From: Actinomycetota bacterium
GTDB lineage: Bacteria; Actinomycetota; Thermoleophilia; RBG-16-64-13
DNA: 41,290 nt
Direction: 5' to 3'
NCBI GenBank assembly: GCA_023483915.1
Contig: JAMDEO010000127.1
Span: 1-41,290, forward strand
The notes below the pieces were generated by a model that was not told the origin of the DNA, made no database searches, and saw only the letters and a program-made list of their open reading frames with translations. The number at the start of each line of letters is the position of its first letter. Position 1 is the first letter of the stretch. This document shows, one piece after another, positions 25,575 through 32,791 of this stretch. The translations under genes were made by a program, and so were the position numbers.

Positions 25575-27998
25575 ATGAAGGCCCCACTCTCCTGGCTGCG
25601 GGAATTCGTGTCCATCGACACGAGGATCGGTGAGCTGGGCCCGCGTCTCGCCCTTACCGGCACAGAGGTGGAACGAATCTCCCCGGTGGGGGTGCCGGGT
25701 GACCCGGAGAATCTCAGCCGTTTCGTCGTGGGCAAGGTGCTTGCCTGCGATCGTCACCCCAATGCCGACAAGCTTTCAGTCTGTAAGGTGGACGTCGGTG
25801 AGGCATCGCCGCGCACGATAGTGTGCGGCGCACCCAATGTCGCTGCGGGACAAACAGTTGCTGTGGTCTTGCCGGGAGGGACCATGCCCGATGGGACGCG
25901 GATTCGTGACGCGAAGCTTCGTGGCGTGGAGTCCTCGGGAATGATCATGTCCGAGGCTGAACTGGGCCTCGCCGCAAAGAGCTCCGGGACTATGGAGCTT
26001 CCTCCTTCCTGGGAAGCCGGCGAGCTCCTCTCGCACTACTTCGCCATCGCAGATGATGTCCTGGAGGTAGAGGTAACTCCGAATCGCCCCGACTGCTTGT
26101 CGGTACGCGGCCTGGCCCGGGAGATCGCGGTCATCACGGGAGCTGCTTTTGATGAGGACCTGCGGTTCACCCATCCCTGGGGCGATAGGCCCATCGACGC
26201 CGATATCTTCATCGAAGTTCGGGATCCTGACCTATGCCCCAGGTACGCGGCTAGGGTCATCCGTGGGGTTACCGTCGCAGATTCTCCGCTCTGGCTGAAA
26301 GCCAAGATCTCTCACGCCGGGATGCGGCCGGTGAATAACGTTGTTGACGTTACCAACTACGCTTTGTGGGCTCTTGGTCAGCCGCTTCATGCCTTCGATC
26401 TCAGAACTATCCGAGGCGGCCGCATCGTTGTACGTCGGGCGTTTCCGGGCGAAAAGATAACGACCCTGGACAACCAGGATCGTGTTCTGAGTGAGGACAT
26501 GCTCGTGATCGCCGATGCCGAGCGGGCCTCGGTAGTGGCTGGGATCATGGGCGGCATCGACAGCGAGGTCACCAACGATACTACCGACGTGCTGCTGGAG
26601 GCGGCGAATTTCGCTGCCCCTTCGATCATGCGAACCTCCTCGGCGCTCGGCCTGCGGAGCGAGGCTTCTACTCGCTATGAAAAAGGGCTCGACCGGGAAA
26701 TGATCCCCGTTGCCCTCGACATGGCGTGCAAGCTGCTGGTTGAGGTCTGTGGCGGCGAGGTCTCAGTTGGCACGATAGATGTCAGGACCGAGCCCTTGCC
26801 CGACGTGGTGATCGGCCTCCGTACGGCGCGCGTAGAAGCGACCCTCGGACTGGCAATCGAGAGGGACGAGATGGCCGACATCTTGACTCGCCTTGGCTGC
26901 ATGGTTCTTGCGGACGGGAACAACCTCAGAGTCAAAGTCCCCACTTTCCGAATAGATCTCGAGCGGGAAATCGATCTCATCGAGGAGGTGGGGCGCATTC
27001 ACGGGCTTGACGTCATTCCCTCCACTCTGCCGGCTAGGCGTGAGGGGAGGGGAGGGCTCACCGCGTTTCAAGCCGCAAGGCGGAAGGCGGAGGATCTTCT
27101 GGCGGGTTGCGGGCTCGTCGAGACCATCAACTACAGCTTCGGGGACGGCAGGTGGGGTGATCAGCTGCGGCTGGATGCGACAGATCCAAGGCGGCGAGGC
27201 TTGCCGATCGCCAACCCCTTGAGTATCGATCAATCTGTGATGCGCACAATGCTTCTTCCGGGGCTGCTCCAGACCGCCCGGGCAAACATATCTGTGCGAG
27301 AGACACGGGTGCACATCTTCGAGGTGGGTAGAGTCTTCCGTCCGGTTGGCTCGCAACTGCCCGAAGAGAGGACCCACCTTGGGATACTACTCAGCGGACA
27401 GTGGGACGAGGGGTCTTGGCTAAACACGGGCATCTCGGTCGACTACTTCTTGGGCAAAGGTATCCTGGAGCGCTTGGCGCAAGGGCTGAATGTCGAGCTC
27501 CACTATGCTCCGGCCGAAGAGCCTTTCCTTCATCCCGGCAAGAGTGCCGCGCTGTCCGATCGGCAGGGGCGGACGGTCGGCTGGCTCGGCGAGATTCATC
27601 CCTCGGTGCTCCAGGAATTCGACGTCCGCTCGGAATCCGTGATTGTCTCCGAGATCGATTTGGACACTTTTTTGGAGGACTGCGCGGGAGCCACGATGTT
27701 CAAAGACCTTCTCGCCTATCCGAGGGTGGAGCAAGACTTGGCCCTCGTCGTGGACGCCGCGATACCGTCGTCGGTTGTGGTGGTGGAATTGCGGGTGGCG
27801 GGCGGAGAGCTCCTGGAAGAGGTGAGGGTCTTCGACGTGTACGAGGGGCCGCAGGTCGGTGAAGGCAGGAAGAGCCTTGCTCTGCGGCTGTCCTTCCGTT
27901 CCTCGGAGAGGACTCTCAGCGAAACCGAGGTCAACGAGATCCGCTCCTTGATCCTCGCCAAGGTGTCTGCCCGCCTGGGGGCGCAGCTTAGGGCCTAA
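25575..27998 (+). CDS. pheT: Phenylalanyl-tRNA synthetase beta subunit
   Basis: N-terminal tRNA-binding domain (VGKVLACDRHPNADKLSVCKVDVG), B3/B4 and B5 domains, FDX-ACB C-terminus. Confidence 0.96.
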   Translation: MKAPLSWLREFVSIDTRIGELGPRLALTGTEVERISPVGVPGDPENLSRFVVGKVLACDRHPNADKLSVCKVDVGEASPRTIVCGAPNVAAGQTVAVVLPGGTMPDGTRIRDAKLRGVESSGMIMSEAELGLAAKSSGTMELPPSWEAGELLSHYFAIADDVLEVEVTPNRPDCLSVRGLAREIAVITGAAFDEDLRFTHPWGDRPIDADIFIEVRDPDLCPRYAARVIRGVTVADSPLWLKAKISHAGMRPVNNVVDVTNYALWALGQPLHAFDLRTIRGGRIVVRRAFPGEKITTLDNQDRVLSEDMLVIADAERASVVAGIMGGIDSEVTNDTTDVLLEAANFAAPSIMRTSSALGLRSEASTRYEKGLDREMIPVALDMACKLLVEVCGGEVSVGTIDVRTEPLPDVVIGLRTARVEATLGLAIERDEMADILTRLGCMVLADGNNLRVKVPTFRIDLEREIDLIEEVGRIHGLDVIPSTLPARREGRGGLTAFQAARRKAEDLLAGCGLVETINYSFGDGRWGDQLRLDATDPRRRGLPIANPLSIDQSVMRTMLLPGLLQTARANISVRETRVHIFEVGRVFRPVGSQLPEERTHLGILLSGQWDEGSWLNTGISVDYFLGKGILERLAQGLNVELHYAPAEEPFLHPGKSAALSDRQGRTVGWLGEIHPSVLQEFDVRSESVIVSEIDLDTFLEDCAGATMFKDLLAYPRVEQDLALVVDAAIPSSVVVVELRVAGGELLEEVRVFDVYEGPQVGEGRKSLALRLSFRSSERTLSETEVNEIRSLILAKVSARLGAQLRA

Positions 27999-28078
27999 CC
28001 TCTCCGTCTGATGTCCCGAGGCCGCTACCTTTCTGGCTCCAGGGGGCGCGCACAATTGAACTCCTCACATCAGCTTCC

Positions 28079-28114
28079 TTGCATCATATTGCATTTCGAT
28101 GTATAGTCATGCAC
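28079..28114. promoter_or_regulatory. ArgR operator (ARG box) array overlapping the argC promoter
   Basis: TTGCATcataTTGCATttcgATGTAtagtcATGCAC: half-sites 10 bp apart, symmetric about 28096.5. Promoter TTGCAT (28079-28084), 17 bp, TATAGT (28102-28107) lies within it. Confidence 0.7.
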
Positions 28115-28143
28115 TTGTGGAAAAGCGAGCGAAAGGTCCGATC

Positions 28144-29157
28144 GTGGTCACGGCTAGCGTAGTGGGAGCCACCGGTTATACCGGGGCAGTGCTGACAGAC
28201 ATCCTGAGTTCACACCCGGATGTGAGACTGCAGGCACTGACTTCGAAATCGTACGCCGGCGACCGAGTCTGCGACGTGTTTCCACACTTGCGCGTGAGCG
28301 GCGTTTACACCCAATATTCAGCCGAGGCCGTCGGCGGGTCGGATGTGGCATTTGTGTGCTACCCGCATGCTGAGTCCCATGCTGTGGTAGCTCAACTCCT
28401 CGACGAAGGTTGCCGGGTCATCGATCTCAGCGCCGATTTCCGGCTGAAGGACCCCGAGGCCTACGCGCTGTGGTACGGCTTCGATCATCCTCGGAAGGAC
28501 CTGGTCCGCGAAGCCGTCTTTGGATTGCCGGAAAAGTATCGGGCGCAACTTCCGGGGGCACGCCTGGTGGCTAATCCCGGCTGCTATCCGACCGGCGCGA
28601 TCCTCGCTGTGCTCCCGGTAGCGTCCGACATCGATGCCTCAGGGCTCGTCATCGATTCGAAGTCGGGAGTTTCGGGCGCCGGTAGGAATCCCTCCGCGAA
28701 GACACACTTCTGTGCCGTCGAAGGGGACTTCCGGGCCTACAATGAGGTCGGACACCGCCACACCTCCGAAATGATCCAAGAAGTAAGTGGGGCAGCCGGC
28801 CATGCGGTCACCATCAGCTTCACTCCCCATCTGCTTCCGGTGGACCGCGGCATACTCACAACCATGTACTTCCGTCCTTTGCGCGGCCTCGTTGGAGATC
28901 AGGCGTGGACACAGAAGTATCGCGACTTCTACGCGGGTGAGCCTTTCGTGGAAGTCTGTGACGCGGTGCCCGCCCTTTCAGAGGTTGCATACACCAACTA
29001 CTGCCGCCTCGCCGTCAGGGAGGACCCAGCGGCCGGTCTGGTCAAGGTTTTCAGCGTCATCGACAACCTGGTCAAAGGCGCCTCTGGTCAAGCCGTACAG
29101 AATATGAACTGCATGTTCGGCTTTCCGGAAGATGCCGGTCTGCAACGGAAGGTTTGA
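28144..29157 (+). CDS. argC: N-acetyl-gamma-glutamyl-phosphate reductase
   Basis: VVGATGYTGAVLTDILSSHP, ANPGCYPTGAILAV, VSGAGRNPSAKTHF. The ORF-track ATG at 28099 falls inside the operator/promoter, so GTG 28144 is preferred. Confidence 0.93.
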   Translation: MVTASVVGATGYTGAVLTDILSSHPDVRLQALTSKSYAGDRVCDVFPHLRVSGVYTQYSAEAVGGSDVAFVCYPHAESHAVVAQLLDEGCRVIDLSADFRLKDPEAYALWYGFDHPRKDLVREAVFGLPEKYRAQLPGARLVANPGCYPTGAILAVLPVASDIDASGLVIDSKSGVSGAGRNPSAKTHFCAVEGDFRAYNEVGHRHTSEMIQEVSGAAGHAVTISFTPHLLPVDRGILTTMYFRPLRGLVGDQAWTQKYRDFYAGEPFVEVCDAVPALSEVAYTNYCRLAVREDPAAGLVKVFSVIDNLVKGASGQAVQNMNCMFGFPEDAGLQRKV

Positions 29158-29158
29158 G

Positions 29159-30502
29159 ATGACAGATTCTCTTCGTCCACTTGGAGCCGCTCCCATGGCC
29201 GCCGCTCCGGCAACCGCTGCTCCGATCGTAGTCGCACCGGCGCAATCTCGCTTCTTTTCCGTGCCTGCCGGCGCGAAGTTGATCGAACCGGCGGAGGGCT
29301 CACCCGGCGTGACATTCCCGAAAGGGTTTCTCGGCAGTGGCCTTGCGGTCGGCATCAAGGAAAGCGGCCGGCCAGACATGGGCGTGCTGTGTGTCATGCC
29401 GGAGTGGAGGAGTTCAACCGTTTCGGCTGCCGTGTTCACGACGAACGCCTTCGCCGCCGCTCCGGTGATTGTAAGCAAAGAGGAGTGCCATCGCTCTCAT
29501 TTGGTTGGCCTAGTGGCCAACAGTGGCAATGCCAATGCGTGCACAGGCGCCAATGGTTTGACGGTCGCGCGGGCCATGCGGTCCTCATGCGCGGAGGCAC
29601 TCGGAATCGCGTCAGAGAATGTGGCCGTGGCGTCTACCGGAATAATCGGCGTTCAGCTTGATGCCGGATTCATGTCGGCTGCGGCAGGAAGGGCGGCAAG
29701 GGCGGTTGCCCCGGGGGGCGGAGGCGATTTCACGCGCAGCATCATGACCACCGACAAGTACCCGAAGGAGTCTGCAGTTGAGCTGAGCCTTCGCGGAGGT
29801 ACGATCAGAATAGGCGTGTGCGCAAAGGGCGCCGGCATGATCGCACCGGCGCTTGCTACCATGATCTGCGTCGTAACCACGGACGCGTCGCTTGATGCCT
29901 CGCAAGCAGCCTCTCTGCTGCATGACGCCGTGAACAGCTCATTCAACAAAGTGACTGTCGATGGAGAGATGAGCACAAACGACTCGGTGTTCTTCCTCGC
30001 CAGCGGGGCCTCGGGCGTGCAGGTGGCACCGTCGGATATACCTCTCTTTGGCGAAGCCCTCAAGTCGATGCTGCTTCGTATCGCCCTGATGATGGTTGCC
30101 GACGGCGAAGGCTCGACTAAGATCATCAAGGCAGTGGTGCGCGGCGCCGCCTCCGACCAGGAGGCGGCGCGTGTGTGCCGGGCAATAGCGGATTCTCCCT
30201 TGGTCAAGACGGCCATGCATGGAGGCGACCCTAACTGGGGCCGGGTGATCAGCTCTGCCGGCGCGGCGCTGGCAGGACAGTCGCTCCCCAATTCCTCACT
30301 CCGCCTCTGCGGAGTTCAGGTTGTGGCCGGGGGAGCTGCGTCTAGAGTGGCTGAAAAGGAATGGGGCACGCTTGTTGCTGGAATGAAGCAACCCGAGATC
30401 GAGATCGAGCTGGACTTGGGTGTCGCCTCCGGCGAAGGCGAGGTCTTCTTCTCCGATCTTGGCCACGAGTACATCACTATCAACGCCGAATATCACTCGT
30501 AG
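29159..30502 (+). CDS. argJ: Bifunctional glutamate N-acetyltransferase/amino-acid acetyltransferase
   Basis: ANSGNANACTGANG, VASTGIIGVQLD, autocleavage region KGAGMIAPALATMICVVTTDA; Ala-rich N-terminal extension. Confidence 0.94.
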   Translation: MTDSLRPLGAAPMAAAPATAAPIVVAPAQSRFFSVPAGAKLIEPAEGSPGVTFPKGFLGSGLAVGIKESGRPDMGVLCVMPEWRSSTVSAAVFTTNAFAAAPVIVSKEECHRSHLVGLVANSGNANACTGANGLTVARAMRSSCAEALGIASENVAVASTGIIGVQLDAGFMSAAAGRAARAVAPGGGGDFTRSIMTTDKYPKESAVELSLRGGTIRIGVCAKGAGMIAPALATMICVVTTDASLDASQAASLLHDAVNSSFNKVTVDGEMSTNDSVFFLASGASGVQVAPSDIPLFGEALKSMLLRIALMMVADGEGSTKIIKAVVRGAASDQEAARVCRAIADSPLVKTAMHGGDPNWGRVISSAGAALAGQSLPNSSLRLCGVQVVAGGAASRVAEKEWGTLVAGMKQPEIEIELDLGVASGEGEVFFSDLGHEYITINAEYHS

Positions 30503-30510
30503 GGGCAGCC

Positions 30511-31407
30511 ATGCGCGAAGTCTACAGGAAACGGGTCGAAACACTTCTGGAGTCGCTGCCGTACATACGCATGTTCAACGGCAAGACGGTAGTCATCAAG
30601 TACGGTGGGGCGGCGATGAGCTCGGCGGATCTCAAAGATGAGTTTGCCACCGACATCGCGTTGCTCCGATATGTTGGCATCAAGCCCATCATCGTTCACG
30701 GCGGAGGGAACGAGATCAGCAAGTACATGCGCAGGCTCGACCTCCCGGTCAAATTCGTTGAGGGGCTGCGAGTGACCGACGACGCCACCATGGAAGTCGC
30801 AAAAATGGTTCTCGTTGGCAAAGTCAACAAAGAGATCGTCGCGCTCATCAACAGCAAAGGAGCCCCGGCTGTGGGCCTGTGCGGCGACGACGGGATGCTT
30901 CTCAAGGCCAAGCCCCTGCTCAAACGTGGCAAGGACGGAACCCCGATTGACCTTGGTCTTGTAGGCGAGGTGACCGAAGTGAACACGGCGCTGCTCGCCG
31001 CGCTCGATGTTGACTACGTGCCCGTTGTGGCTTCGGTTGGGGTAGGGCCCAATGGAGAGACCTACAACATTAATGCCGACACCGTCGCCGGGGCTCTGGC
31101 TGCTGCTCTGCAGGCAGAGAAGGTGATATTCCTCACCGATGTGACCGGTCTCCACGGAGATCTGGAGGATGAGTCCAGCGTGATCTCGGAGTGCACGGCC
31201 GCTGACCTGGTGGATCTCATCGACGGGGGTAGGGTGTCCAAGGGGATGATCCCGAAGCTCGAAGCGGTCCTCACCAGCTTGCGGGGAGGGGTGGCCGCCG
31301 CTCACATCATCGACGGCCGGATAGCACACTCGGTGCTCCTGGAGATACTCACTGACGACGCCGGCTTGGGAACGAAGATATCCTCGGGTGCGGGGATAGG
31401 TTCCTAA
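30511..31407 (+). CDS. argB: Acetylglutamate kinase
   Basis: MREVYRKRVETLLESLPYIRMFNGKTVVIKYGGAAM...IKPIIVHGGGNEIS...VGLCGDDG...NINADTVAGALAAAL. The start at 30361 overlaps argJ and is unlikely. Confidence 0.95.
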   Translation: MREVYRKRVETLLESLPYIRMFNGKTVVIKYGGAAMSSADLKDEFATDIALLRYVGIKPIIVHGGGNEISKYMRRLDLPVKFVEGLRVTDDATMEVAKMVLVGKVNKEIVALINSKGAPAVGLCGDDGMLLKAKPLLKRGKDGTPIDLGLVGEVTEVNTALLAALDVDYVPVVASVGVGPNGETYNINADTVAGALAAALQAEKVIFLTDVTGLHGDLEDESSVISECTAADLVDLIDGGRVSKGMIPKLEAVLTSLRGGVAAAHIIDGRIAHSVLLEILTDDAGLGTKISSGAGIGS

Positions 31408-31416
31408 GGAGGAAGC

Positions 31417-32328
31417 ATGGCAGTCAAGCACTTTCTCACCGTTCCGGATCTGAGCAAAGACGAGTTCGAGCACGTTCTGCAACAGGCTGCCGCCTGGAAG
31501 CGCCAGCCTTATGGCGGTGTTCTGGCCGGTAAGACGGTCGCTCTTGTCTTCGGAAAACCGTCCACGCGCACGCGGGTCTCCTTCAGTGTAGGCGTGTACC
31601 AACTCGGAGGCTTGCCGCTGACTCTCTCCGAGCAGGAATTGCAGATCAGAACGTCGGAAAGCATCGAAGACACAGCTCGGGTCTTGTCGCGCTACGTGAA
31701 CGCCATAGTAATCCGGACTTTCGCCAAAAAGGACGTGGAGGATCTGGCCGCGGCAGCCTCGGTTCCTGTGATCAACGCGCTTACCGACGAGGATCACCCG
31801 TGTCAGGCCCTTACGGACATCTTCACCTTCAGAGAGCATTTTCCAGACACCGGGCGCAAGATCACCTATCTCGGGGATGGGAACAATGTCGCGGCATCTC
31901 TGTCAGAAGCCGCCGCTCTTGCCGGCATCGATATCTGCCTCGCCGTCCCGGAAGGCTGTGATCTTCCCAAAGTGAAGATGGACTCCATCGCCATGCTTTC
32001 GGAGAGCTGTGGGACGAAGTTTTGGGTCGAGCGGGACCCGGAGGCGGCGGCAGCCGGGGCTTCCGCGCTCTACACCGATGTGTGGATCAGCATGGGACAG
32101 ACCGACGATTCCGCCAAAGTGGAGCGTCTTCTCCCGTTCCGTCTCGATGGACGTCTGTTGGCCCGGGCCCTTCCGGAGGCGCTTGTGATGCACTGTTTGC
32201 CCGCTCACCGGGGCGAGGAGATCACCGACGAGGTCATGGATGGCCCGCAGTCGGTGGTCTTCGATCAGGCCGAGAATCGGCTTCACGCTCAGAAGGCGCT
32301 GATGGCTTACATTTTGGGAGGTCGGTAG
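31417..32328 (+). CDS. argF: Ornithine carbamoyltransferase
   Basis: FGKPSTRTRVSF, LSRYVNAIVIRTF, NALTDEDHPCQALTDIFT, YTDVWISMGQ, MHCLPAHRGEEITDEVMDG. Confidence 0.95.
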   Translation: MAVKHFLTVPDLSKDEFEHVLQQAAAWKRQPYGGVLAGKTVALVFGKPSTRTRVSFSVGVYQLGGLPLTLSEQELQIRTSESIEDTARVLSRYVNAIVIRTFAKKDVEDLAAAASVPVINALTDEDHPCQALTDIFTFREHFPDTGRKITYLGDGNNVAASLSEAAALAGIDICLAVPEGCDLPKVKMDSIAMLSESCGTKFWVERDPEAAAAGASALYTDVWISMGQTDDSAKVERLLPFRLDGRLLARALPEALVMHCLPAHRGEEITDEVMDGPQSVVFDQAENRLHAQKALMAYILGGR

Positions 32329-32332
32329 TCGG

Positions 32333-32791
32333 GTGAACAAGCGGCAAAGACAACAGATGCTGCGGCGGTTGGTGCGCGAGCGCATAATCGGCAGCCAGAT
32401 GGAGTTGGTCGACGCCCTTCGCGCTACCGGGTTTGTGGTCACCCAGGCCACTATCAGCCGCGATTTGCGGGAGCTGGGACTTCAGAAGGAGCGCGACGTA
32501 ACCGGCAGAACGCGCTACGTCCTCGTGCCGACCAGTGAGGAAAAGCCAGACCCGCAAGTCGCCTGCAGCAGGATGCTACAGGAATTCGGCCGCGGCGTGG
32601 ATACTGCGCAGAACTTGTTGGTGGTGCGTTGTGACCCCGGTGCCGCACCCGGTCTCGGCAGGGTTATCGACGAGCTTGAACACGCGGCGATACTCGGTTG
32701 CGTCGCCGGCGACGACACGGTGATAATTGTGGCCAAAGACGGGCGGGCAGCGGAGACTGTCTGCGCCTATCTTAGGGAACTGGGAGGATAG
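32333..32791 (+). CDS. argR: Arginine repressor
   Basis: Winged-helix (RATGFVVTQATISRDLRELGLQKE) and C-terminal hexamerisation/Arg-binding domain (VRCDPGAAPGLGRVIDELEHAAILGCVAGDDTVIIV). Confidence 0.95.
   Translation: MNKRQRQQMLRRLVRERIIGSQMELVDALRATGFVVTQATISRDLRELGLQKERDVTGRTRYVLVPTSEEKPDPQVACSRMLQEFGRGVDTAQNLLVVRCDPGAAPGLGRVIDELEHAAILGCVAGDDTVIIVAKDGRAAETVCAYLRELGG

Follow-up and report, generated by a model that had tools for sequence, protein, structure and literature searches.

In Streptomyces, the argC operator consists of two 18-nt ARG boxes with 2 bp between them (PMC3293853). A second description, in which two 20-bp boxes adjoin each other as in Bacillus, is given in PMC5839063. 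In a box of the form TTGCAT-N4-ATGCAA the TGCA cores are 10 bp apart, and a second box 20 bp further on extends the series. The locus studied here lies in the gap between pheT, which ends at 27998, and argC, in a window of 41,290 nucleotides (the whole stretch of DNA that was analyzed) from an actinomycetotal genome.

Direct reading of the sequence revealed the four half-sites TTGCAT (28079-28084), TTGCAT (28089-28094), ATGTAT (28099-28104), and ATGCAC (28109-28114) at exact 10-bp steps, and the inner as well as the outer dyad has its centre at 28096.5. A TATAGT is found at 28102-28107, 17 bp past the first TTGCAT. Thus, the phased array with its shared dyad centre and its span over TTGCAT-N17-TATAGT, both described in an earlier note on this DNA, were confirmed. 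A series of four TGYA motifs with 10-bp steps is present a single time in the window, both strands counted, and it was absent from all 60 simulated windows of matched dinucleotide make-up. The orientation of the half-sites is only weakly readable, because TGCA itself is palindromic. The region 28077-28116 is very probably a conventional ArgR operator, with two contiguous ARG boxes over the predicted sigma-70-type promoter of the argC operon. The features are listed in Table 1.

Table 1. Positions of the predicted operator, promoter, and leader and of the argC and argR genes in the window.
Feature	Positions	Strand	Remarks
ARG box A, putative	28077-28096 (20-bp form; 18-nt form 28078-28095)	.	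half-sites TTGCAT (28079) and TTGCAT (28089); matrix score 9.05
ARG box B, putative	28097-28116 (20-bp form; 18-nt form 28098-28115)	.	half-sites ATGTAT (28099) and ATGCAC (28109); matrix score 12.48
-35 TTGCAT, predicted	28079-28084	+	deduced, 17 bp before the -10; doubles as ARG half-site 1
-10 TATAGT, predicted	28102-28107	+	within box B; overlaps half-site 3
Short leader, probable	28113-28143	+	from the +1 near 28113, deduced from the -10 position, up to the start codon
argC	28144-29157	+	Pfam semialdehyde dehydrogenase domains; GTG start probable, GAAAGG at 28131-28136
argR, presumed regulator	32333-32791	+	PF01316 (8e-22), PF02863 (1e-19)

A palindromic weight matrix was derived from 37 experimentally bound ARG boxes of S. 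coelicolor, those in the authors' own model (PMC5839063), and a tandem score for two contiguous boxes, 20 bp apart, was calculated over about 41,000 window positions. With this matrix the region 28077-28116 was at the top of the tandem ranking, with a score of 21.5 versus 11.2 for the next best position. A distance of 20 bp was the best one, i.e., with spacings of 18, 19, 21, and 22 no tandem score as high was obtained anywhere in the window. Scored singly, box B had rank 3 and box A rank 13 of the about 41,000 positions, and the pair of both was first. The centres of the boxes, 28086.5 and 28106.5, are 20 bp apart, likewise in relatives, and this explains the four cores at 10-bp steps as well as the central dyad. 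The central register at 28096.5 had the lowest score of the three (6.05, versus 9.05 at 28086.5 and 12.48 at 28106.5). The inner pair, to which the earlier note had ascribed the 5-4-5 geometry of an ARG box, is thus below both outer registers. In the 13 loci of the window's family that are in register, the scores were 12.3 to 18.9 for box B, -1.8 to 14.8 for box A, and -3.7 to 8.2 for the central register, which was below box B in all 13 cases. By score, box A was weak or absent in three loci (L012, L014, and L015). On the basis of these sequence comparisons we favour a tandem operator in which the -10 would be covered by a strong box and the -35 by a more variable one. An equally high tandem score (21.97, observed 21.5) was also reached at some position in one of the 60 simulated windows. 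Because the simulated maximum is about as large as the observed value, the score alone is not decisive, and score, place, and conservation are needed together.

ArgC was present in 45 of 61 relatives. In the family of the window, the array or its remnant was found upstream of argC in all 15 loci. The exact register was seen in 13 of them, half-site 4 is displaced by 2 bp in L004, and the array is broken by Ns in L002. An alignment of 14 family members revealed that 28079-28116 is conserved column by column, while the flanks are variable. Half-sites 2 to 4 and the -10 are almost invariant, and half-site 3 is TGTAT in every family case. Conservation in relatives, which the earlier note had named as a check, was therefore found, i.e., the block is kept upstream of argC across the family.

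The array pattern was also searched for in 15 genomes, and with at most one mismatch only argC matches were found (control counts 0). The pattern TTGYA-N6-TGTATRRTNATGC, again with at most one mismatch, yielded 14 matches in the 15 genomes and none with the reversed control, and 12 of the matches are at argC. The remaining two matches (L073 in G003 and L074 in G014, both at about 1501-1524, TTGCAC..ATGTATAGTGxTGC) are located at the starts of genes for PadR-like regulators, as judged by translation, and they are probably PadR autoregulatory sites and not ARG boxes. When 397 genomes of the phylum were searched with a stricter pattern, 4 had a match. Three of these belong to the window's family, and the sole match outside of it (L179, from another family) is also situated between pheT and argC. 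For other families of the class that were examined, no operator was found in the 250 bases upstream of the argC start region. In these loci (L016-L030) the end of pheT is often overlapped or directly followed by argC, and arginine control must be elsewhere or absent. The same tandem-box layout was seen upstream of a Pelotomaculum argC gene (L094, 2924-2963), with a TATAAT within the second box and a tandem score of 19.4.

The predicted argC promoter is backed by conservation. In 14 of 14 aligned family members the -10 is TATAGT, TATAAT, TATGAT, or TATATT. In the -35 columns a T is found at 28080 in all 14 and a G at 28081 in 86%, and the TTG can survive the loss of the rest of half-site 1, e.g., as TTGGCC in L012. 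The argC promoter was absent from the list of a promoter scan, because its -35 agrees with TTGACA at the TTG only. The overlap with the -10 also explains why half-site 3 contains TGTA and not TGCA, as a compromise between TGCAT and TATA. The leader had no Rfam match and no unusual fold, and an RNA leader or attenuator was rejected for this reason. The longest argC frame starts with an ATG at 28099, inside the operator. The GTG at 28144 is the likelier start, because the start codon of the relatives is at the same point, and the automatic annotation may have placed the argC start 45 bases too far upstream (28099-28143).

The gene argC is the first gene of the order argC-argJ-argB-argF-argR-argG-argH. 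The encoded ArgR matches solved ArgR chains, 3laj and 3lap among them, and the GDDT motif is retained in its C-terminal domain. Both Arg_repressor domains were found, and, thus, the claim that ArgR is encoded alongside argC holds. In all family members tested, the contig with argC had a TIGR01529 match. In G000 there was a single match, and with 127.3 bits it was just under the curated cut-off of 130.45. Between argB and argF of the window (30361-32328) there is no argD gene. It is within the cluster in G002, G003, G004, G007, G009, G012, and G014 and outside of it in about half of the family, the best argD-like genes elsewhere being lower-scoring.

Further ARG boxes were searched for at the starts of argJ, argB, argF, argR, argG, argH, pheS, and pheT in the window. 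The best single score was 5.9, and none was credible. No credible box was found upstream of non-operonic argD-like genes in seven loci either. Additional ArgR sites near argD and argG, for which the earlier note had suggested a scan, were thus not found at these seven loci and at the argG start in the window. A simple half-site pair pattern was not enriched genome-wide in G000 (16 matches, control 15), and, therefore, one loose box by itself does not count as evidence.

Two other readings of the conserved block were weighed. The inner box (28089-28104) could be the main ArgR site, with the outer half-sites as a second, concentric contact. The outer letters of the four half-sites follow the order L-L-R-R (TTGCAT, TTGCAT, ATGTAT, ATGCAC), as would be expected for a common dyad at 28096.5, and in the 14 family members half-site 1 is less conserved than half-sites 2 and 3. 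However, the -10 accounts for the conservation of half-site 3, the inner register has a lower score than both outer registers in the window and than box B throughout the family loci, and published operators have the tandem register. Such a nested operator is thus very unlikely. It is likewise highly improbable that an ArgR hexamer uses the central register in addition and switches between tandem and central binding on the 10-bp-phased array, which would result in graded repression.

The other reading is that ArgR is uninvolved, and that the block represents either the promoter alone or the binding site of a different regulator with TGCA repeats as its target. Indeed, the most conserved parts include the -10 as well as the TTG of the -35. 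However, the near-invariant half-sites 2 and 4 fall outside of the -35 and -10 hexamers, the independent ArgR matrix picks the site, the pattern is specific to argC, and argR is part of the same cluster. We regard this reading as the least probable one. Taken together, the phylogenetic footprint, the experimental ARG-box matrix, and the neighbouring argR strongly support the earlier proposal of a candidate ArgR operator that overlaps the argC promoter.

That the window's ArgR binds to the tandem operator, that this depends on arginine, and that it leads to repression is inferred, as is the position of the transcription start. When arginine is plentiful, an ArgR hexamer that is encoded in the same cluster and loaded with arginine would occupy the two boxes from one face of the helix and cover the -35 and the -10. 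Half-site 1 would at the same time be the -35 and half-site 3 the -10. Bound ArgR would exclude RNA polymerase, and arginine synthesis would be turned off. With this proposal the arginine operon of a little-studied, apparently actinobacterial family receives a regulator and a promoter, and the Streptomyces-type ArgR operator would hold in this family. An actinobacterial affiliation is indicated by the gene order pheST-argCJB-F-R-G-H and by the type of the ARG boxes. The knowledge of ArgR itself is unchanged.

The earlier note had compared the layout solely with two boxes separated by 3 bp, the spacing of Escherichia coli. The E. coli system is similar in that paired 18-bp boxes lie over the promoter, and the spacing in its argR operator is 2 bp, but usually it is 3 bp. 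The half-sites of E. coli ArgR are TGAAT/ATTCA, unlike those of the window. Bacillus AhrC/ArgR differs in that B. subtilis argC was reported to have two boxes 11 bp apart and one within the gene. The argC operator of Streptomyces clavuligerus and S. coelicolor is alike in its 18-nt boxes, its 2-bp gap, and its position upstream of argC (PMC3293853, PMC5839063), and in addition the TGCAT/ATGCA half-sites and the presence of argR in the arginine cluster are shared. In contrast to Streptomyces, half-site 3 is TGTAT in the window, because the -10 lies inside of it, and box A is the weaker of the two boxes. The view that the nested dyad is unlike the usual layout was not supported: the central register is the weakest, the central dyad is a by-product of the 20-bp distance between the box centres, and the published tandem layout is identical. 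The sequence comparison thus gives good support for an ordinary layout of the predicted operator, as it was known before from Streptomyces and Bacillus, and not for a new nested one.
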